Shown: positions 5,629-20,303 of the stretch, in pieces
How the letters are laid out: every line of letters starts with the position of its first letter
How positions within the stretch are numbered: position 1 is the stretch's first letter
IMG/VR virus record: IMGVR_UViG_3300036785_000996
Location: 1 to 27,419 of that record
Length of the DNA: 27,419 nucleotides
Reading direction: 5' to 3' (one strand)
Source of the DNA: a virus
Program-made: the position numbers and the translations under genes
The notes under the pieces: generated by a model
What the model was told of the DNA's origin: nothing
The model's database searches: none
What the model saw: only the letters and a program-made list of their open reading frames with translations

Positions 5629-5990
5629 GGAAGCCGTTTCCGCCGCAGGTCGAGGCCGCGCGCATCCGTAATGGGGCGATGGGCAGCGCGTGCGATGTTG
5701 GCTATGGCGCCTTCGAATTCACCAACAAGAGCGGCAAGCGCTTGGTCGTCGTCGCGACCGATGGCGATGCTACCGGCTGGGAGCATGTCAGCGTTTCGCT
5801 CAAGCATCGGACGCCGACCTGGGAGGAGATGTGCTTCATCAAGGACCTGTTCTGGGGCCCGGAGGAAGAGGTGGTGCAGTTTCATCCGCCGCGCTCAGAA
5901 TACGTCAACTGCCACCCCCACTGCCTGCACCTGTGGCGGCATGTCGATGGCCACAAGATCCCGCCGTCAATCCTGGTAGGCCCGCGATGA
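5625..5990 (+). CDS. DUF7694-like protein
   Basis: The 121-residue protein has a pattern I associate with the phage DUF7694 family: a strand with KRLVVVATDGD, then GWEHVSVSL, TPTWEEMCFIKDLFW, EEVVQFHPP and a C-terminal YVN-HPHCLHLWR run. The family is widespread in phages and prophages next to early genes; its activity has not been established to my knowledge. The conserved His, Cys and Trp residues near the C-terminus could form a binding site. It starts in an ATGA overlap with the HTH gene and ends in another with the GcrA gene. Confidence 0.7.
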   Translation: MRKPFPPQVEAARIRNGAMGSACDVGYGAFEFTNKSGKRLVVVATDGDATGWEHVSVSLKHRTPTWEEMCFIKDLFWGPEEEVVQFHPPRSEYVNCHPHCLHLWRHVDGHKIPPSILVGPR

Positions 5991-6388
5991 AGCCGCACGG
6001 CAATCAGACCTGGACCGACCAGGAGGATGCGCAGCTCCTCGCCCTCGAGCGCCAGGGGCTCTCCGGCAGCCTGATCGGGCAGCGCCTGGGCAAGAGCAAG
6101 GCCGCGGTCATCGGCCGCTCGCATCGGCTGCGCGGCTACAAGCGCCAGGGGGTGCACACACAGGGAGTTGCGGCCATGCCACGGCAGACCAAGGTCACGG
6201 TGCGCAAGCTGTATCAGCTGGCGCCGAAGCCGGATTCGGGACGGCGCCTGATCGGCATTATTGATCTGGATCAAAATACCTGCCGCTGGCCGTTCGGCGA
6301 GCGAGCGCCGTTCCGGTTCTGCGGCGCACCGCCGGCAAGCGTGCACACGCCCTACTGCGCGCTGCACTTTCGGCTGGGCTTCAAGTGA
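5987..6388 (+). CDS. gcrA: GcrA-type cell-cycle transcription regulator
   Basis: The 133-residue protein has the GcrA architecture. An N-terminal HTH (about 8-50, TWTDQEDAQLLAL to KAAVIGRSHRLRG) is joined by a basic linker to a C-terminal segment with CRWPFG (99-104), FCG (111-113) and YCALH (123-127). In Alphaproteobacteria GcrA binds RNA polymerase sigma70 domain 2 and activates promoters that carry CcrM-methylated GANTC sites. A phage copy could redirect host polymerase or tune phage promoters to the cell cycle. It is translationally coupled (ATGA) to the upstream gene and about equal to or somewhat shorter than bacterial GcrA. Confidence 0.85.
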   Translation: MKPHGNQTWTDQEDAQLLALERQGLSGSLIGQRLGKSKAAVIGRSHRLRGYKRQGVHTQGVAAMPRQTKVTVRKLYQLAPKPDSGRRLIGIIDLDQNTCRWPFGERAPFRFCGAPPASVHTPYCALHFRLGFK

Positions 6389-6415: not shown

Positions 6416-7027
6416 ATGAAACATCTCCTAGCTCTATTGTTACTCGTTAGCACGCCGGCTCAGGCAGAACCGAGCCATATCAAGCTCTCGCCCAGCGCCG
6501 GCACCTGGCATGTGCCGGTCGAGGTGGACGGGGCGCTGACGGCGCCGTTCATGGTCGACAGCGGCGCCGCGATCGTGGTGCTGACGGCGGACATGTACGC
6601 GCGCCTGCGCAGCCTAGGGGCGATCCGGGACGAGGACCTGCGGCCGCCGCAGTCGTTCACCATGGCGGACGGTGCGGTGCACCAGTGGCCGACCTTCATG
6701 CTGCGCTCGCTCAAGGTGGGGGGCGTCACCATCGAGAACGTGCACGGCGCCGCCAAGCCCACGTCCATGGGCTCAGCCTTGCTCGGGCAGCCGTTCCTCG
6801 AGCGGCTGAAGGCCTGGCATGTGGACAACAGCGTGCATGAGCTGGTGCTGGAGCCGCGTGAGGTACCACGGGCGGTAGCTGTGGAGCCTTATGTAGTACC
6901 GCGGATGGTGGATGCTCCAGTGGCACCGCCGCCGCCGGTGGTGATGACGGAGCGAATTGTGGTGCAGCGGCAACCGGTCGACTGGATCCCGCCCAGCTTC
7001 CAGGTCCAATTCTGGACCCGCAAATAG
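6416..7027 (+). CDS. Exported retropepsin-like aspartyl protease
   Basis: The 203-residue protein begins with a signal peptide (KHLLALLLLVSTPAQA, likely cut after residue 17). It contains a clan AA aspartic protease domain: the active-site stretch FMVDSGAAIVVLT with D48-S49-G50, a MADG flap-like region near 83-86, and the closing LLGQPFLERLKAW (122-134). Such single-domain proteases act as dimers. A Pro/Val-rich tail of about 60 residues follows. The start at ATG 6416 has a CGAAAGGGAAAA box. A periplasmic protease in a phage early region is unusual; targets may be host envelope proteins or incoming phage, but no substrate can be read from the sequence. Confidence 0.75.
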   Translation: MKHLLALLLLVSTPAQAEPSHIKLSPSAGTWHVPVEVDGALTAPFMVDSGAAIVVLTADMYARLRSLGAIRDEDLRPPQSFTMADGAVHQWPTFMLRSLKVGGVTIENVHGAAKPTSMGSALLGQPFLERLKAWHVDNSVHELVLEPREVPRAVAVEPYVVPRMVDAPVAPPPPVVMTERIVVQRQPVDWIPPSFQVQFWTRK

Positions 7028-7097
7028 TGGCAGCGTCCATGACCCAAGTCTATGGGTGGCGGCTTGACGGCGCCTTGGTCCCTGAGCGAACCTTGTC

Positions 7098-7158
7098 TTG
7101 CGCCGGTCATGCAAGCCGGAATATAAGACCAGTGCCGGGACATCGGTTAGCTACCGAT
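7098..7158 (+). promoter_or_regulatory. Candidate promoter and operator upstream of HTH gene 7212
   Basis: TTGCGC (7098-7103) and TATAAG (7122-7127) are 18 nt apart and could form a sigma70-type promoter. Fifteen nucleotides further on is a perfect inverted repeat ATCGGT-TAGCT-ACCGAT (7142-7158), placed where a repressor would block the start of transcription. The HTH gene at 7212 is the natural candidate for self-regulation. The 184-bp gap (7028-7211) holds no gene. Confidence 0.4.
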
Positions 7159-7211
7159 TGCCTGCCCTGATGGCTCACCGGCTCTTCACCGCCCTAAAGG
7201 GGGGCGTCAAA

Positions 7212-7409
7212 ATGAAAAATCCACAGGATTTTGCGTTATTCTTGCGCCGCGCGCGCGAGCAGAAATGCCTTACTGCGGCTTTGCTGGCTGAGAAGCTCGG
7301 CCTGCATCCTCACATCATCGACGATTGGGAGAAGGGAGTACGCACGCCGCGGCTGGCGTCGGCGATCCGTTGGGCCGATGCCCTCGGGCACCATCTGGAA
7401 TTGCGGTAA
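7212..7409 (+). CDS. Small XRE-family HTH regulator
   Basis: The product is a 65-residue single HTH domain: DFALFLRRAREQKCLTAALL, then EKLGLHPHIIDDWEKGVRTP as turn and recognition helix, and ALGHHLELR at the end. ATG 7212 is preceded by a purine-rich AAAGGGGGGCG; the in-frame extension up to 7098 crosses the promoter and is not used here. It stands directly before the replication gene and after an inverted repeat, so it probably controls the rightward replication operon. This is inference from position. Confidence 0.7.
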   Translation: MKNPQDFALFLRRAREQKCLTAALLAEKLGLHPHIIDDWEKGVRTPRLASAIRWADALGHHLELR

Positions 7410-7425
7410 CCTGGGGGGGCCTCCC

Positions 7426-8130
7426 ATGATCACCATTGCTCTCTTGCGCGCAGCCGGTCTCACCGAGGCTAAGGTCTTGCGTGTGGCCGAGCTGGAGGAG
7501 GCGGCTGACCGCGCCGCCAACGCGGCTCGCCAAGCCCGTTTCCGTGAGCGAAAACGTAACGCAAAAACCGTTACTAGTAACGCAAGTAACGTTGCCAACG
7601 TTACTTCCGTTACGCCTCAAATTATTGAGCAAAATCAACAACCCTGTAACGAAAGTAACGTTACAGGCGTTACGCATGGACGTATAGGAGTCCTTACTTC
7701 TTCTTCTTCTACCAAAGAAAGTAAGAAAGAAAGAAGGAAGAAAGCAAGCACCGCGCGCAAGAGCGCGCTGCTTGCCGGTTGGACCTTGCCCGAGGAAGGG
7801 ATCGCTTTCGCCAGAAGCAAGGGGTGGCCGGAGGATCGAATTTCAACCGAAGCACTGCGGTTTCGGGATCACGCCCACGCCAACGGCCGGCTTCAGGTTG
7901 ATTGGGCGGCCGCTTGGCGTGGTTGGGTCACCTCACCCTACCGGCAATCAAGCAATCAGAACGGAGGACACGTCGATGGTCGCGAGCAAAGACTCCAAGA
8001 CCGCAACCGGCGGATCAACGAATGGGAATCTGCCCTCGCGGACGCCCGCGCCTTCGCTGCCGGATCGGGAAAAGGCGGTGGCGATGGCGGAACGCCTGCT
8101 TTCACAATTTTCCCCCCAAAACGGACTTGA
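7426..8130 (+). CDS. Replication protein, DnaT/helicase-loader-like C-terminal domain
   Basis: The 234-residue protein starts at ATG 7426 behind GGGGGG. The N-terminal 45 residues form an Ala/Arg-rich helix; residues about 44-85 are a low-complexity Asn/Val/Thr/Ser stretch encoded by the iteron-like DNA; then comes a Ser/Lys-rich linker. From about 113 a domain with WTLPEEGIAFARSKGWPED, FRDHAHANGRLQVDWAAAWRGWV resembles the C-terminal DNA-binding domain of DnaT-like primosome proteins and phage replication proteins, where a conserved W-x-x-A-W-R-x-W ends the helix. A role in loading a helicase at the origin inside its own gene, like lambda O, is inferred. Its 3' end overlaps the next gene by 155 bp. 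Confidence 0.6.
   Translation: MITIALLRAAGLTEAKVLRVAELEEAADRAANAARQARFRERKRNAKTVTSNASNVANVTSVTPQIIEQNQQPCNESNVTGVTHGRIGVLTSSSSTKESKKERRKKASTARKSALLAGWTLPEEGIAFARSKGWPEDRISTEALRFRDHAHANGRLQVDWAAAWRGWVTSPYRQSSNQNGGHVDGREQRLQDRNRRINEWESALADARAFAAGSGKGGGDGGTPAFTIFPPKRT
7556..7673. repeat. Iteron-like cluster of GTAACG/CGTTAC, candidate replication origin
   Basis: Ten copies of the hexamer GTAACG or its complement CGTTAC lie within 118 bp: starts at 7556, 7569, 7577, 7586, 7599, 7608, 7646, 7655, 7659 and 7668, with many spacings of 8, 9 or 13 bp. The copies at 7655 and 7659 form the palindrome GTAACGTTAC. An AT-rich segment (7615-7641) splits the array, and a purine tract (about 7711-7745) follows. 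The array lies inside the replication gene in the same way as the lambda origin within O. Alternatively it merely reflects an Asn-Val-Thr coding repeat, but the exclusive use of AAC and GTT codons favours selection on DNA. Confidence 0.6.
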
Positions 8131-8641
8131 CCTGCGCGTCTTCCTCACGGCGATAGCCAGTATCCTGATGCACTATCCGGTTGCCGTCGGCGAGGAGATT
8201 GCGGACCCGTTTTTGGGGCTGCCGTCCAAGCTCAAGTTCCCGCCTACCCCCTATGACGTTAAACAGGCGTGTGATGAGATTGCCGCCCGCGCGCGTCCTG
8301 TTCGCTGTCTGATGGACGATTGGGATGCGCGTTCACGGGCGCAACTTGAGGAGCGCAAGCGGATCGAGGACGCGAGCCGGCGCGACCCCGACAAGGCGGC
8401 CACCGTCCGCAAGTTCGAAGACGAGATGGCCAGTCACGGCATCCACATGGAGGGCTGGAAGAAGCGTCAGCCAACAGCCCACGGCGAAACCTCACAAAGC
8501 GTGCGCAGCAAGCTTGGGCTGACCCAGGAGCAGTGGGACGCGCTGCCGGATGCCAAAATTCCGTGCGGCGCCTTCCAGAGCCTTGGCGAGGCTGTGGGAA
8601 AGGTTGTCGAGCGGACGGTGTCTCAGGAGCCCGACCAATGA
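7976..8641 (+). CDS. Conserved-type replication-region protein
   Basis: The 221-residue protein starts at ATG 7976, with GGAGG at 7963-7967, inside the preceding gene in another frame. After a Ser/Thr/Pro-rich leader comes a helical part (REKAVAMAERLLSQF to ITAIASILMHYPVAVGEEI style), then GLPSKLKFPPTPYDVKQACDE, a motif seen in small phage proteins next to helicase-loader genes. A charged helical stretch (about 125-160, SRAQLEERKRIED) follows. Enzymatic residues are not visible. Its place suggests a replication accessory function. The 155-bp overlap with the upstream gene is long; a start at ATG 8084 would remove part of it but discard the good ribosome site. Confidence 0.65.
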   Translation: MVASKDSKTATGGSTNGNLPSRTPAPSLPDREKAVAMAERLLSQFSPQNGLDLRVFLTAIASILMHYPVAVGEEIADPFLGLPSKLKFPPTPYDVKQACDEIAARARPVRCLMDDWDARSRAQLEERKRIEDASRRDPDKAATVRKFEDEMASHGIHMEGWKKRQPTAHGETSQSVRSKLGLTQEQWDALPDAKIPCGAFQSLGEAVGKVVERTVSQEPDQ

Positions 8642-11073: not shown

Positions 11074-11171
11074 TGGCGAGCTTCCGCGAGAATACGCTTT
11101 ACCTCATTGCACAACTCGCGGTGCGACGGCTCACGCCCGAGCTTCGCCTTGAGCGCTTGGTAAATAGTCAT
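11070..11171 (-). CDS. 33-residue small protein
   Basis: ATG 11171 has the box CGAAAGGGGAA (complement of 11175-11185) at good distance, shared with other genes of this phage. The product (TIYQALKAKLGREPSHRELC and onward to AEARQ) is a short, mostly helical peptide with the look of a winged-helix or HTH fragment ('G-R-E-P-S-H-R-E-L'). The strong ribosome site supports translation in spite of the length. A longer in-frame extension to 11387 has no such site. Confidence 0.55.
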   Translation of the reverse strand: MTIYQALKAKLGREPSHRELCNEVKRILAEARQ

Positions 11172-14230: not shown

Positions 14231-15052
14231 ATGAGGCTTATCCGCGTATTCCCCCGCCGCACCAAGGCAACCCCGACCGATGCTTTGGCTTATTTCGGGC
14301 CACCAGATTTGTTTGCGGAAGCGGATGAAGTTCATGTCTCGGTGACGTTTACTTACGACAAGCCGACGGCCGAGCAGTTTGCCGAGCAATGGCGCTATGT
14401 GGCTCCCACCAAGGTCGGTGGCGTTGCCTATGGCGATCGCGGTGAGGAGTTTATCCCCGGCCGCTACATCAGGCACGGCTATGGGTTCACCTCGCGTGGG
14501 TGCCCACGCAAGTGCTGGTTCTGCAGTGTTTGGAAACGTGATCCGGTGCCGCGGTTGCTGCCGATTATTGATTGCTGGAACATTCTCGATGATAATCTGC
14601 TGGCGTGTCCACGCCCGCATGTCGAGTCCGTCTTTGCAATGTTGCGGCGGCAGGATCGGAGAATTGAATTTACCGGCGGACTCGAGGCGCGAGCACTGGA
14701 GAATTACCAGGTCGAATTGCTTGCGAGTCTGCGTCCGCGCCCTTCGATGTTCTTTGCGTATGATCCAGGTGATGCCTTCGAGACACTCGAAAGCGCGGCA
14801 TCTCGGCTGCAGGCCGCAGGTTTTTCGGCGTGTTCGCATCGGCTGCGATGTTACGTGCTGGTTGGCCACCCGAAGGATACTTTCGACCTGGCAGAGGCGC
14901 GCCTGCGGCAAATGCTCGGGATTGGTTTCACGCCGATGGCAATGCTGTGGCGACCGGAAACGCCGTCGCAGGAGAAGTACCGTCCCGATGACCGCTGGCG
15001 CGCCTTTCAACGAAGATGGGCGCGGCCGGCTATCATTCATGCAGTGCAATGA
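14231..15052 (+). CDS. Radical SAM enzyme of unknown substrate
   Basis: The 273-residue protein contains the radical SAM cluster motif C91-PRK-C95-WF-C98 (CX3CX2C) in SRGCPRKCWFCSVWKRD. Upstream (31-70) is a short alpha/beta region like a reduced cobalamin-binding-type domain (ADEVHVSVTF). After the cluster come FTGGLEARAL (147-156), a SAM-binding-type Gly-rich strand, FFAYDPGDAFETL and YVLVGHPKDTFDLAEARLRQ, in the order seen in Elp3/MiaB-like proteins. It lacks the TRAM or HAT domain of those enzymes, so it is not an ordinary tRNA enzyme. It starts at ATG 14231 with CGAAAGGAAA and overlaps the next gene as ATGA. Chemistry and target are unknown. Confidence 0.8.
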   Translation: MRLIRVFPRRTKATPTDALAYFGPPDLFAEADEVHVSVTFTYDKPTAEQFAEQWRYVAPTKVGGVAYGDRGEEFIPGRYIRHGYGFTSRGCPRKCWFCSVWKRDPVPRLLPIIDCWNILDDNLLACPRPHVESVFAMLRRQDRRIEFTGGLEARALENYQVELLASLRPRPSMFFAYDPGDAFETLESAASRLQAAGFSACSHRLRCYVLVGHPKDTFDLAEARLRQMLGIGFTPMAMLWRPETPSQEKYRPDDRWRAFQRRWARPAIIHAVQ

Positions 15053-16140
15053 ATCCCATCCTCATCGACAACTTCTTCCCGCCCGAGCTGTACCAGCGCC
15101 TGCGCTCGAGCGTGCGCGCCGCGCCCATGACCTACGGCTCCAAGTCCAACAGGAATACAGATCCGCATGGGCATTGGTCGTGGAAGCCGTTGCACGACTC
15201 GACCTATAACCTGGCCGACATAAGCGACCAGCTGCAAATGTTACGCCTGCAGGGCCATGATCCTGGTTTGTTTGCTGGCTGGAATTTTCTGCGCGATAGT
15301 TCCGGCAAAAGAACAGGAGGATATGGCTTTGACATTGCCAGCATGAAGCTGGTGCGCTGCTACGTCAACGGCTACACCTACGGCACCGATGGATATTTCC
15401 ATACCGACAGCGACCGCGACGGCGATCTGACCGTCATCATCTACATCTGCGGTGATGCGGACGCATCAGGCAACAATGCGTGGCCGCTGGACTGGGCCGG
15501 CGAGACCGTGTGCACCGATGGCAAGACCTACTGGTCGTATCTGCCGCGGGCAAATAGAGTGGTGATACTCCCCTCCAACATGCTGCACGCGGCCAGGGCG
15601 GTGAGCAGGAAGTGCACCGAGCTGCGCACTACGCTGATGTACAAGGCCAGGCCGCGCCGCAACTCATTATTCGAGGTGCAATCCGACTGGCTGCGCGAGC
15701 GCGGCGCTTTGGCGATCAATCATTCGACCGGTTCGTTGCACGACCACCTGATGCGCTGTCATCAGCTCGTATACGACAAGGAGCCGAAGGACTCGTTGAT
15801 GCTGGCCTATGCCGCCGGGCTGCACTCGATCTACGGCACCAATGCCTTCGCCAAGGTGCTGCTCGAGGCCACCGACTCCAACCGCGCCGACGTTGCTCGC
15901 AAGTTCGGCAGAGAGGCCGAGGAACTGGCCTATCTGTTCCATCTGCTCGAGCGGCCGAAGACCCTGGAGGAAGTGAAGATGGGTGAGGGCGATTGCTTCC
16001 TCGAGTACCGGTTCAACAAGTTCGGCTGGCACAATGCGGCCGTGACCAACGCGCTGCGGCTGATAGAATGCGCCAACCTGGCCGACCAGAAGAGCCTGGA
16101 GAAGTGGCCGAATTTGCAGAAGCTCTGGAGCACGACATGA
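15049..16140 (+). CDS. 2OG-Fe(II) oxygenase fused to DUF6817-like domain
   Basis: The 363-residue protein has two parts. Residues 1-200 form a prolyl-4-hydroxylase-like 2-oxoglutarate/iron(II) dioxygenase: H118-T-D120 in GYFHTDSD, distal H180 in NMLHAARAVS and R193 in LRTTL supply iron and 2OG ligands. Residues about 228-345 (LHDHLMRCHQLVYDKE, LAYAAGLHSIYGTNAF) resemble DUF6817, a helical HD-like domain of unknown activity. It is joined by ATGA overlaps to the radical SAM gene before it and to the methyltransferase gene after it. Hydroxylation of a base, nucleotide or peptide is possible; nothing in the sequence decides which. Confidence 0.78.
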   Translation: MNPILIDNFFPPELYQRLRSSVRAAPMTYGSKSNRNTDPHGHWSWKPLHDSTYNLADISDQLQMLRLQGHDPGLFAGWNFLRDSSGKRTGGYGFDIASMKLVRCYVNGYTYGTDGYFHTDSDRDGDLTVIIYICGDADASGNNAWPLDWAGETVCTDGKTYWSYLPRANRVVILPSNMLHAARAVSRKCTELRTTLMYKARPRRNSLFEVQSDWLRERGALAINHSTGSLHDHLMRCHQLVYDKEPKDSLMLAYAAGLHSIYGTNAFAKVLLEATDSNRADVARKFGREAEELAYLFHLLERPKTLEEVKMGEGDCFLEYRFNKFGWHNAAVTNALRLIECANLADQKSLEKWPNLQKLWSTT

Positions 16141-17187: not shown

Positions 17188-17786
17188 TCTATCTGAGCGG
17201 CACCATCCGCCCGAACTTGAGCCATCCCATGCTCGGCTTCATGAAGGCACCGCAGACGGGGTACCAAGTGCCGCTGGGCATAGCATGGGCGGCCGACAAT
17301 GGGCGCTTCAGCGCGCCCGAGAAGTACACCGACGACGGATACCTCGGTTGGCTCGCTCGGCAACCGCTCGAGCATTGCCTGTTCGCGGTCGCCCCAGACG
17401 TGCTGGCGGACCACACCGCGACTATTGCGCTCTCCATGCCGTTATTTTCGCGGCTACGGGCGCTGGGGTACCGGGCTGCCTTCGTGGCCCAGGACGGCTG
17501 GCGCGAGCACGACACCCCCTGGGATGAGTTTGACTGCCTATTTCTCGGCGGTACCACGGCGTTCAAGCTTGGCTGCGGCGCTGCCGCGGTGGCGGCCGCC
17601 CGCGCGCGCGGCAAGTGGACCCACATGGGCCGCGTCAATTCCTACCGCCGGCTGCGGTTGGCGGCGGCCATCGGCTGCCATAGCGCCGACGGCACCTTCC
17701 TCAAGTTCGGGCCCGACGTGAACGCGCCCAGGATGCTGCGCTGGCTGGAGTGGCTGGCGGCCGCCCCTTTACTCAAGTTCTGGTAG
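17184..17786 (+). CDS. Possible TGT/DpdA-like transglycosylase-family protein
   Basis: The 200-residue protein looks like a short TIM-barrel protein. Segments in order are MIYLSGTI, IAWAADNGRFSAPEKYTDD, CLFAVAPDVLADHTAT with D72, RAAFVAQDGW, FDCLFLGGTTAFKLG, GKWTHMGRVNSYRRL and IGCHSADGTFLKFGPD. This order of an Asp after a hydrophobic strand, Q-D-G, G-G-T and a late D-G-T resembles queuine/archaeosine transglycosylases and phage DpdA relatives, which insert 7-deazaguanine into DNA. No deazaguanine synthesis genes (folE, queD, queE, queC) are in this window, and the resemblance is by eye only. It starts in an ATGA overlap with the HTH gene. Confidence 0.45.
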   Translation: MIYLSGTIRPNLSHPMLGFMKAPQTGYQVPLGIAWAADNGRFSAPEKYTDDGYLGWLARQPLEHCLFAVAPDVLADHTATIALSMPLFSRLRALGYRAAFVAQDGWREHDTPWDEFDCLFLGGTTAFKLGCGAAAVAAARARGKWTHMGRVNSYRRLRLAAAIGCHSADGTFLKFGPDVNAPRMLRWLEWLAAAPLLKFW

Positions 17787-18314: not shown

Positions 18315-18453
18315 CCCGATGTGCGTGGAGCTTGCCCGCCACTTCCTCGACGACGTGAAGTTCTCGGATAATACCGACGTGCAGGAGCTGGCGGAGATAA
18401 TCCAGACCGCCTGCGAGCAGTACTGCCATGAGATGGAAGACGACGAGCAATGA
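18298..18453 (+). CDS. 51-residue acidic protein before terminase
   Basis: ATG 18298 has GGGAGGCGG upstream and lies in the end of the preceding gene. The product (KPVDPMCVELARHFLDDVKF, then LAEIIQTACEQYCHEMEDDE and a final Gln) is acidic and helical, with three cysteines. The stop overlaps the terminase start as ATGA, so the terminase is translated by coupling to this gene. Its function is unknown. Confidence 0.65.
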   Translation: MTKPVDPMCVELARHFLDDVKFSDNTDVQELAEIIQTACEQYCHEMEDDEQ

Positions 18454-20303
18454 ACCGGCGCGGACCACCGCTGCCGGTCGCTCCCTTCCCGCGCGAGCGC
18501 TTCCTTGACTTTTGCAGCCGATTGAGAATTCAGACTAAAGATTACGGCATGGTGCCGATGCAGCTATTGGGCACGCAGACATTCGTGCTCGATCAGATCT
18601 GCGCCGCGACCGATAAAGGCGTTACGACATTCCTGATTCTTAAAGCTCGTCAATTAGGAATGACTACATTCTTCATCGCATTGGATCTGTTCTGGGCCTT
18701 TGAACATGACGGCCTCTTGGGTGCCTTCGTCACCCATACCGACCAGGCCAAGGCCCTGTTCAGGAACACGATCAAGATCTTCTTCACCGGCCTGCCGAAG
18801 ACCCACAAGATCAAGTGGGACGCCGAGAACCGCGACATGATCGTGCTCAAGAATGGCTCACTGCTTCAGTACCTGGTTGCGGGGATCAAAGAGAAAGCCA
18901 AGGGCGGCCTTGGCCGCTCGTCGGCGAATAACTTTATCCATGCCACGGAGGTAGCCTTCTGGGGCTCGCCAGACGACCTGAACGAACTCTCGGCCACAAT
19001 GAGCACACATTATCCGCACCGCCTGAAGATTGAGGAAACGACAGCGAATGGGTTTAATTTCTGGGAGGAACGGTGGCGCGAGGGTAAGGACGACCCAACA
19101 ATCTGCTGCATCTTCGTCGGTTGGTGGCGGCATGACGACTATGCCTTCCATGACGACGACGAGCGCTTCCTGCTGTTCATGGCCAAGGGGCACCAGTCGC
19201 AGCTGACCATGCTGGAGCGCCGCCGCGTCAACGAAGTCTACAAGCGCCACGGCGTTACCGTCAACCACAACCAGATCGCCTGGTACCGCTGGAAATTGGA
19301 TACAGAAAATAGTGGCGACCAGAACAAGATGGACGAGATGTTCCCGTGGCTGGAGGACGACGCCTTCGTCGCCACAGGCACCCAGTTCTTCTCCTCCTTG
19401 CATCTGACAGAAGCCGCCAAGAACGGCCGCAACGTCAAGTTCATGCCGTTCAAGTACCAGATGGGCGACACCTGGCGCGATACCACGGTCATCGCCATGC
19501 GCAACCCGCGCTCGGAGCTCAAAGTATGGGAGGAGGCGGATGCCACCGGCCATTATGCAATTGGATGTGATCCTGCCTACGGAAGTGGAGAAGAAGCTGA
19601 CCGAAGCGTTATCAATGTATGTCGATGCTATGCAGATCGACTGGTCCAGGTTGCCGAATTCGTTTCGCCTCTTATCAGTACCTACCAATGTGCCTGGGCG
19701 CTTTGTCACCTTGCGGGTTACTATCGAAACTGCATGGTCAACCTTGAAATAACCGGCCCCGGCGAGGCGGTGTTCAACGAGATGAATCAACTGCGCCGCG
19801 ACGCCGTGCAGATGATGGACCGCACCCCCGACGGCAAGATCGAATATGATTTGAGATATGTCTTCACCATGATGCGGCACTACCTCTACTCGCGCCCAGA
19901 CAGCATGCAGCAGTCGCTGGCCTACCAGTGGAAAACCACCGGCAACAACAAGTTCAGCATGCTCTCATCGTTCAAGGACTCGTTCGAACTGGGACGCTTC
20001 AAGACGTTCTCGCTCTACCTCATCGACGAGATGAAGACCATCGTGGTCGACGGCGGCGCCGTGGGGGCGGAGCCAGGGAAGAAAGACGACCGGGTGATCG
20101 CCGCCGCCTTGGCGCACGAGGCCTGGAGAAGATGGATCAGGCAGCGCCTGGAGGCCAACGGCATCACCTACGCGGCCGCCCAGCGCGAGGCCGAGGGCAA
20201 GGGCCCCGGCGTTGCGGAAAAGGCCGCCATCAACTACCTTCGCGCCGCCGGCGTCATCAACAAGGCGGGAGACTTGCTTGTTGCGGAGCAACGGGGTCAA
20301 TAA
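18450..20303 (+). CDS. terL: Terminase large subunit
   Basis: The 617-residue protein is the DNA-packaging motor. The ATPase part has a Walker A-like KARQLGMT (65-72) preceded by the strand TTFLIL, an adenine-binding-type QTFVLDQI upstream, and a Walker B-like region FIHATEVAFW. The nuclease part shows AIGCDPAYGSGEEADRSV with D374, a middle acidic LEITGPGE and a final D-D-R-V-I-A (D546, D547), as in RNase H-fold terminase nucleases. It starts by ATGA coupling and ends with TAATG to the next gene. It is longer than the common 450-500 residues, as in several phages whose TerL has extra insertions. Confidence 0.9.
   Translation: MNRRGPPLPVAPFPRERFLDFCSRLRIQTKDYGMVPMQLLGTQTFVLDQICAATDKGVTTFLILKARQLGMTTFFIALDLFWAFEHDGLLGAFVTHTDQAKALFRNTIKIFFTGLPKTHKIKWDAENRDMIVLKNGSLLQYLVAGIKEKAKGGLGRSSANNFIHATEVAFWGSPDDLNELSATMSTHYPHRLKIEETTANGFNFWEERWREGKDDPTICCIFVGWWRHDDYAFHDDDERFLLFMAKGHQSQLTMLERRRVNEVYKRHGVTVNHNQIAWYRWKLDTENSGDQNKMDEMFPWLEDDAFVATGTQFFSSLHLTEAAKNGRNVKFMPFKYQMGDTWRDTTVIAMRNPRSELKVWEEADATGHYAIGCDPAYGSGEEADRSVINVCRCYADRLVQVAEFVSPLISTYQCAWALCHLAGYYRNCMVNLEITGPGEAVFNEMNQLRRDAVQMMDRTPDGKIEYDLRYVFTMMRHYLYSRPDSMQQSLAYQWKTTGNNKFSMLSSFKDSFELGRFKTFSLYLIDEMKTIVVDGGAVGAEPGKKDDRVIAAALAHEAWRRWIRQRLEANGITYAAAQREAEGKGPGVAEKAAINYLRAAGVINKAGDLLVAEQRGQ

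Follow-up and report, generated by a model that had tools for sequence, protein, structure and literature searches.

A GTAACG box array inside a phage replication-initiator gene: a probable replication origin with a basic helix as its candidate reader

The window analysed here, a stretch of 27,419 nucleotides (positions 1 to 27,419 of IMG/VR record IMGVR_UViG_3300036785_000996), is a phage fragment with a terminase gene at 18450-20303. A GcrA-like cell-cycle regulator gene at 5690-6388 (PF07750, E 1.5e-16) suggests an alphaproteobacterial host. At 14231-16140, an endonuclease V-like gene (phrog_274, E 6e-17) comes after a radical-SAM-like gene (phrog_9298, E 3e-19). The features of the initiator locus are listed in Table 1.

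Table 1. Genes and DNA features of the initiator locus, in window coordinates
Feature	Position	Strand	Basis
Small XRE-type HTH regulator gene, 65 aa, upstream	7212..7409	+	PF01381 E 5.1e-9
Replication-initiator gene P0001, 234 aa	7426..8130	+	phrog_1408 E 3.7e-8
Basic motif NAARQARFRERKR, residues 32-44	7519..7557	+	inside predicted helix 14-54; box association
First box group, six boxes	7556..7613	.	7556+, 7569-, 7577+, 7586+, 7599-, 7608-; exact matches; conserved in L003; synonymous-codon test
AT-rich spacer between the two box groups	7614..7645	.	62.5% AT vs 38% in window
Second box group, four boxes	7646..7673	.	7646+, 7655+, 7659-, 7668-
Purine tract, coding strand	7714..7744	+	31-nt run with one break
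C-terminal domain coding sequence (WTLPEEG...RFRDHAHANG...DWAAAWRGW)	7753..7953	+	iterated profile search
Downstream overlapping gene P0002, 221 aa	7976..8641	+	no Pfam or PHROG match

Residues 31-203 of P0001 match positions 116-290 of the 302-position phrog_1408 profile, 'replication initiation protein'. The first 115 positions, the N-terminal third of the profile, are unmatched, and P0001 falls short of the full-length profile. Pfam gives no match to Phage_rep_O, the family of lambda O, and only a sub-threshold tail-assembly match; no winged helix is recognisable in P0001, Foldseek returns nothing significant, and a direct search of P0001 against named phages finds no match. An AlphaFold model built with a 15-sequence alignment predicts a short helix, a long helix (14-54), a disordered linker and a C-terminal domain (approximately residues 110-176, pLDDT >90). 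The linker is the part of the protein encoded by the boxes. The basic motif lies within one predicted helix, in a block with a pLDDT of 80-95, and its last codon, CGT, overlaps the first box. An iterated profile search, for which N- and C-terminal slices of P0001 served as queries, links the C-terminal domain to proteins at eight other loci (L128, L124, L296, L211, L200, L164, L234 and L107); the L107 protein has a sub-threshold match to the Pfam DnaT domain (E 3.6e-4). By tblastn, P0002 matches weakly next to a DUF1376 gene of Microcystis phage Mwe-JY08. From its position, P0002 could encode a helicase loader or primosome partner.

The original prediction described ten GTAACG/CGTTAC hexamers in 118 bp with spacings of 8, 9 and 13 bp, an AT-rich spacer and a purine tract after the array. 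All ten hexamers are present as exact matches, and the spacer and tract were recovered. Neighbouring boxes in the same orientation are 9 bp apart (four times), and those in opposite orientation are 13, 8 and 4 bp apart; the overlapping 4-bp pair, which forms GTAACGTTAC, is additional to the spacings predicted. Only four further copies of GTAACG/CGTTAC occur in the other 27.3 kb of the window, and none of 100 dinucleotide-preserving shuffles attains the total of 14 (mean 5.2). The following 87 nt are 56% AT compared with 38% in the window; they and the spacer are candidates for an unwinding region. The suggested check for an origin by GC skew was run: the cumulative skew reaches its minimum at 11148 and its maximum at 17200; it does not turn at the array and is uninformative on a 27-kb fragment. 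Searches of 7000-8300 against Rfam find no matching RNA element, and a tRNA search finds none.

It was further claimed that protein and DNA signals are overlaid here and that every copy keeps phase with the codons AAC and GTT. All ten window boxes do lie in the phases xGT-AAC-Gxx and xxC-GTT-ACx; as a general rule the phasing fails, being a local feature. The residue before Asn varies between Cys, Ser and Arg, with every codon ending in GT, and the residue before Val varies between Asn, Thr, Ser and Gly, with every codon ending in C. When synonymous codons are re-drawn with the gene's own codon usage, the mean is 2.8 boxes and the maximum is 9; ten are reached in 0/20000 draws. The closest relative (L003) is 78% identical in its best segment and keeps 8/10 hexamers intact. 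It differs from the window at 2/58 positions in the boxes, 7/65 in the rest of the array, 17/127 in the preceding part of the gene and 53/230 in the C-terminal part; at third codon positions there are 1/19 differences in boxes compared with 10/42 in the preceding part of the gene.

Pattern scans of IMG/VR for the array gave a set of 43 stretches with arrays, most of them in coding sequence. Relatives read the hexamer as Val-Thr, xAsn-x, Ala-Leu/Leu-Arg or Arg-Tyr. Among 40 array loci found through the motif (see below), each uses 2-5 codon phases and 29 use three or more; in 30 motif-first loci, 132 boxes are observed and 36 are expected from synonymous re-drawing. Three loci have two GTAACG arrays about 200 bp apart (L006:9459-9699, L010:8014-8254 and L007): one lies midway through the N-terminal domain, and the other spans the stop codon, the TAA of a box ending the gene; the straddling array of L006 and L010 is the second of the two. 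Relatives that keep the Asn-Val-Thr peptide and vary its codons freely had been named as the contrary case. The opposite was found: relatives keep the hexamer and vary peptide and phase, and none was seen that keeps the peptide while losing the hexamers. The constraint on the array acts on DNA. Genes of this type in other phages contain these hexamers as well and read them in other phases; the boxes are therefore a DNA-level element, and the repeats behave as DNA signals superimposed on coding sequence.

The motif (N)AERQRR[FY]RER, typically NAERQRR[FY]RER, directly precedes the array in many array-bearing proteins. IMG/VR was also searched with DNA patterns of the motif only, blind to DNA words. 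In this motif-first search GTAACG is the top hexamer of all in the DNA following the motif, and of the 30 loci whose downstream frame is long, 24 contain at least three boxes. A scan for AERT, with Thr at the fifth residue, finds initiator-like loci with three to nine copies of GTGACG and almost no GTAACG; a further scan that left the fifth residue free added cases. Motif loci were clustered at 50% identity, and an array was counted where the 240 nt behind the motif contained three or more boxes. By this measure arrays follow the motif in 39/66 clusters, compared with 10/2058 control stretches of 240 nt taken from elsewhere in those loci (p 9e-56). Purine runs of at least 20 nt are present in 10/40 array loci and in 0/26 motif loci without arrays. 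Whole-genome searches for the motif in two bacterial classes give only 15 matches. The box word changes when the segment changes, which suggests that a short basic segment of the initiator reads it.

The motif also occurs in other settings. Two loci (L043:2614-3036 and L110:1077-1478) encode proteins of 133-140 aa that start with NAERQRRYRER and are encoded over 17 GTAACG boxes; close to half of each gene is array. A small zinc-ribbon-like phage protein with the pattern xAER..RYRERQAGRLPP..C..C...HTG.HG..C..CW (L090, L093, L098, L121, L130, L141, L158, L212 and L246) has the same basic motif at its N-terminus and no array nearby.

Residues of the motif are numbered here from the bZIP-like Asn as position 0. 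The combination N0+Q4, or M4, goes with GTAACG (18/20 arrays A-dominant) and T4 goes with GTGACG (0/9 A-dominant); this contrast came from separate scans. When V4 is added to the first class and A4 and N4 to the second, the counts are 19/21 and 0/14 (p 5e-8), with the widened classes assigned after seeing the data. Motif and word agree in 38/40 cases overall. GC content was considered as a cause of the choice between GTAACG and GTGACG and was ruled out by a permutation stratified by GC tertiles (p 5e-5); mean GC is 0.60 as against 0.62. Among pairs with homologous N-terminal domains, which are not independent of one another, the word differs in 20/25 pairs of different motif class and in 4/19 pairs of the same class; because of these counts, the word is taken to follow the motif rather than the N-terminal domain. 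The window protein, with N0, Q4 and GTAACG boxes, fits the rule. Q4 without N0 is found with GTGACG or mixed arrays, and there are exceptions to the residue rule at L149 (M4), L089 and L084. Motif residues thus co-vary with box sequence.

Named phages were reached via related initiators, with L296 leading to the annotated relatives. V4 and GTAACG occur together in YdaU of the Rac prophage (E. coli 442/2), in Xanthomonas phage CP2, in Pseudomonas phages VW-6S and PAN70, and in CBW1004C-Prop1, BUCT554, TL-2011b and ST11-OXA245phi3.2; the boxes of V4 initiators usually form two groups. Epsilon15 (L316) and phiPSA1 (L318) have K4 and a different repeated word, GCGGAC(A), in two groups, the first in the early part of the gene and the second immediately behind the motif. 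This grouping resembles that of GTAACG in the relatives of Rac YdaU. Evi, pAEv1818 and phi1 have K4 and the word CGTGAC(A). Initiators lacking the motif (for example in Gifsy-2, mEpX1 and phiES15) have unrelated repeated words; in Cy-LDV1 (S4) and Mwe-JY25 (G4) the motif is a related one and an array is absent. The named-phage genes carry replication-protein annotations, and several are followed by a gene for a DnaC-like loader. The ydaU of E. coli K-12 is not the same as the Rac ydaU of strain 442/2, and it contains no array. The known Rac origin is oriJ (PMC3945230).

Arrays are also found away from the motif. By strict regular expression, the motif lies in frame upstream in only 16/43 array-first loci; the loci failing this expression include some variant motifs, peptide repeats, non-coding arrays and a small HTH gene. 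No motif ORF was found near the non-coding or HTH-gene arrays in the stretches examined. The non-coding GTAACG arrays (L035:3185-3296, L041:10002-10113, L047:9033-9154, L052:7471-7581, L059, L062 and L065) form a family with 9-10 boxes, conserved spacing and no open frame across them. In another group (L005:3961-4183, L009:328-549, L040 and L067), GTAACG boxes lie before and inside a small HTH gene, where they are read as GNDSGNEGNALPALP. This gene is possibly small-terminase-like, and its boxes may use the same word for autoregulation or packaging. Bacterial arrays, mainly from Alistipes and other Bacteroidota, occupy ORFs that are short or spurious, often with several arrays on one contig, and they resemble unrelated repeats. 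Those on the Alistipes contigs L011, L013, L017, L025, L026 and L029 are repeated GTAACG arrays outside phage initiator genes, and are probably an unrelated bacterial repeat family.

The array was originally likened to a lambda-type origin lying inside its initiator gene. In lambda, the iterons bound by the O protein lie midway along gene O, next to an AT-rich tract (PMC7466680). The layout of the window holds up in this comparison: its repeats are inside the coding sequence of a phrog_1408-related initiator, in the linker between N- and C-terminal parts, and are adjoined by AT-rich and purine-rich DNA. Binding of the repeats by the initiator, as lambda O binds its iterons, would be the counterpart in the window. 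Unlike lambda O, the window protein lacks a Phage_rep_O match, and its proposed reader is a basic helix. The boxes are 6 bp long and of mixed orientation, whereas lambda has a few longer iterons, and their word is common to dozens of otherwise different phages. A second comparison is with the initiators and replisome organisers of PHROGs 1408, 2509, 9474, 3729 and 5968 (Rac YdaU type, epsilon15, Phage_rep_org_N), in which an N-terminal domain is followed by the basic motif, a box-coded linker and a C-terminal domain, often with a DnaC-like loader after it. The window protein differs from these in lacking the first third of the profile; its N-terminus is short and leads into the long helix.

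The basic region of eukaryotic bZIP proteins of the Yap1/Pap1 type has the sequence NRAAQRAFRERK. The window motif has the same N-x(7)-R spacing (N32...R40) on the predicted continuous helix, and the motif likewise has Gln at +4, Phe/Tyr at +7 and Arg at +8 and +10. The positions that set specificity in bZIP proteins are the residues that vary with the word here. The Yap1 site is TTACTAA (PMC3865217), and a TTAC/GTAA core is common to Yap1-type sites and GTAACG. The phage motif differs in having Arg instead of Ala at +3 and no leucine zipper after it: the helix ends at about residue 54 in the low-confidence disordered linker, and any coiled part of the protein would precede the motif. Motif peptides have no Pfam match, and a profile of 24 motif sequences finds no bZIP protein in the PDB. 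The resemblance may be convergent or superficial, and the motif would be bZIP-like at most by analogy.

The array is probably the phage's replication origin, placed inside the gene of its own initiator, with its boxes read by the basic helix; we give this reading a probability of roughly 70%. We infer box binding, DNA opening, origin activity, helicase loading and dimerisation by the initiator. Copies of the protein would bind the GTAACG boxes via the basic alpha-helix NAARQARFRERKR encoded immediately upstream, and would crowd on the two inverted box groups, which could hold a multimer. The AT-rich spacer, or the DNA beside the purine tract, would then open, and the C-terminal domain would recruit the helicase-loading machinery. 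The linker peptide SNASNVANVTSVT... would be a disordered filler, its codons set by the boxes. The basic helix is probably the reader, because P0001 has no winged helix, the basic segment is an evident candidate, and motif and word change together.

Two other readings are unlikely, and to a similar degree. The initiator may bind the boxes mainly as an operator, repressing or blocking transcription by binding inside its own gene, with replication starting elsewhere. Covariation of protein and boxes would look identical, and the similar boxes within and just upstream of the small HTH gene in L005 and L009 resemble autoregulation. However, arrays mostly lie in genes for replication initiators, proteins for which origin sites are to be expected; the arrays lie mid-gene, away from promoters; purine tracts follow a quarter of them; and lambda offers a precedent, with its origin in the central part of gene O (PMC7466680). 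The other reading keeps the origin and assigns the boxes to a winged helix, an XRE regulator or a host factor, with the motif hitchhiking or binding non-specifically. Many relatives do have winged-helix N-terminal domains (Phage_rep_org_N in L286), and some arrays have no motif nearby. Yet P0001 carries the same boxes without a recognisable winged helix, different N-terminal families with a common motif have a common word, and homologous N-terminal domains switch word when the motif switches. The XRE-type regulator encoded upstream is not thought to read the array, because in L003, where the array is kept, no HTH ORF immediately precedes the initiator gene; a host factor would leave the correspondence between word and residues in the phage protein unexplained. 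The weakest alternative, in which the DNA repeat is a by-product of a protein-level Asn-Val-Thr-rich linker, can be dismissed: the window boxes use two codon phases and yield a regular peptide, but synonymous re-draws average 2.8 boxes instead of ten, the outer residues vary just so that the DNA is kept (GT before Asn, C before Val), and relatives encode different peptides from the same hexamers in varied phases.

A broader form of the origin reading is evenly balanced between right and wrong. Here many phage initiators would have in common a short bZIP-like basic helix that reads the hexamer boxes encoded behind it by a residue-to-base code and moves with them as a cassette. In the proposed code, residues 0 and +4 would set the third base of GTRACG: N0+Q4, or M4, or V4, would specify A; T4, A4 and N4 would specify G; and K4 would go with different words. 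The helix would move between otherwise unrelated initiators together with its boxes, as a self-contained, evolvable origin.

An origin inside an initiator gene is a known layout; an earlier description of this motif or its boxes was not found in the open-access literature. Lambdoid phages have origins inside their initiator genes, but the usual view assigns every phage iterons of its own. In the loci compared here, a single word with its variants turns up in many phages, and a single short, portable motif apparently reads it. Origins could thus be predicted from sequence in thousands of uncultured phages. If the proposal is true, it would also amount to a naturally occurring code of protein-DNA recognition that has switched many times in parallel, and would show clearly how DNA signals can dictate the codons of a protein linker.
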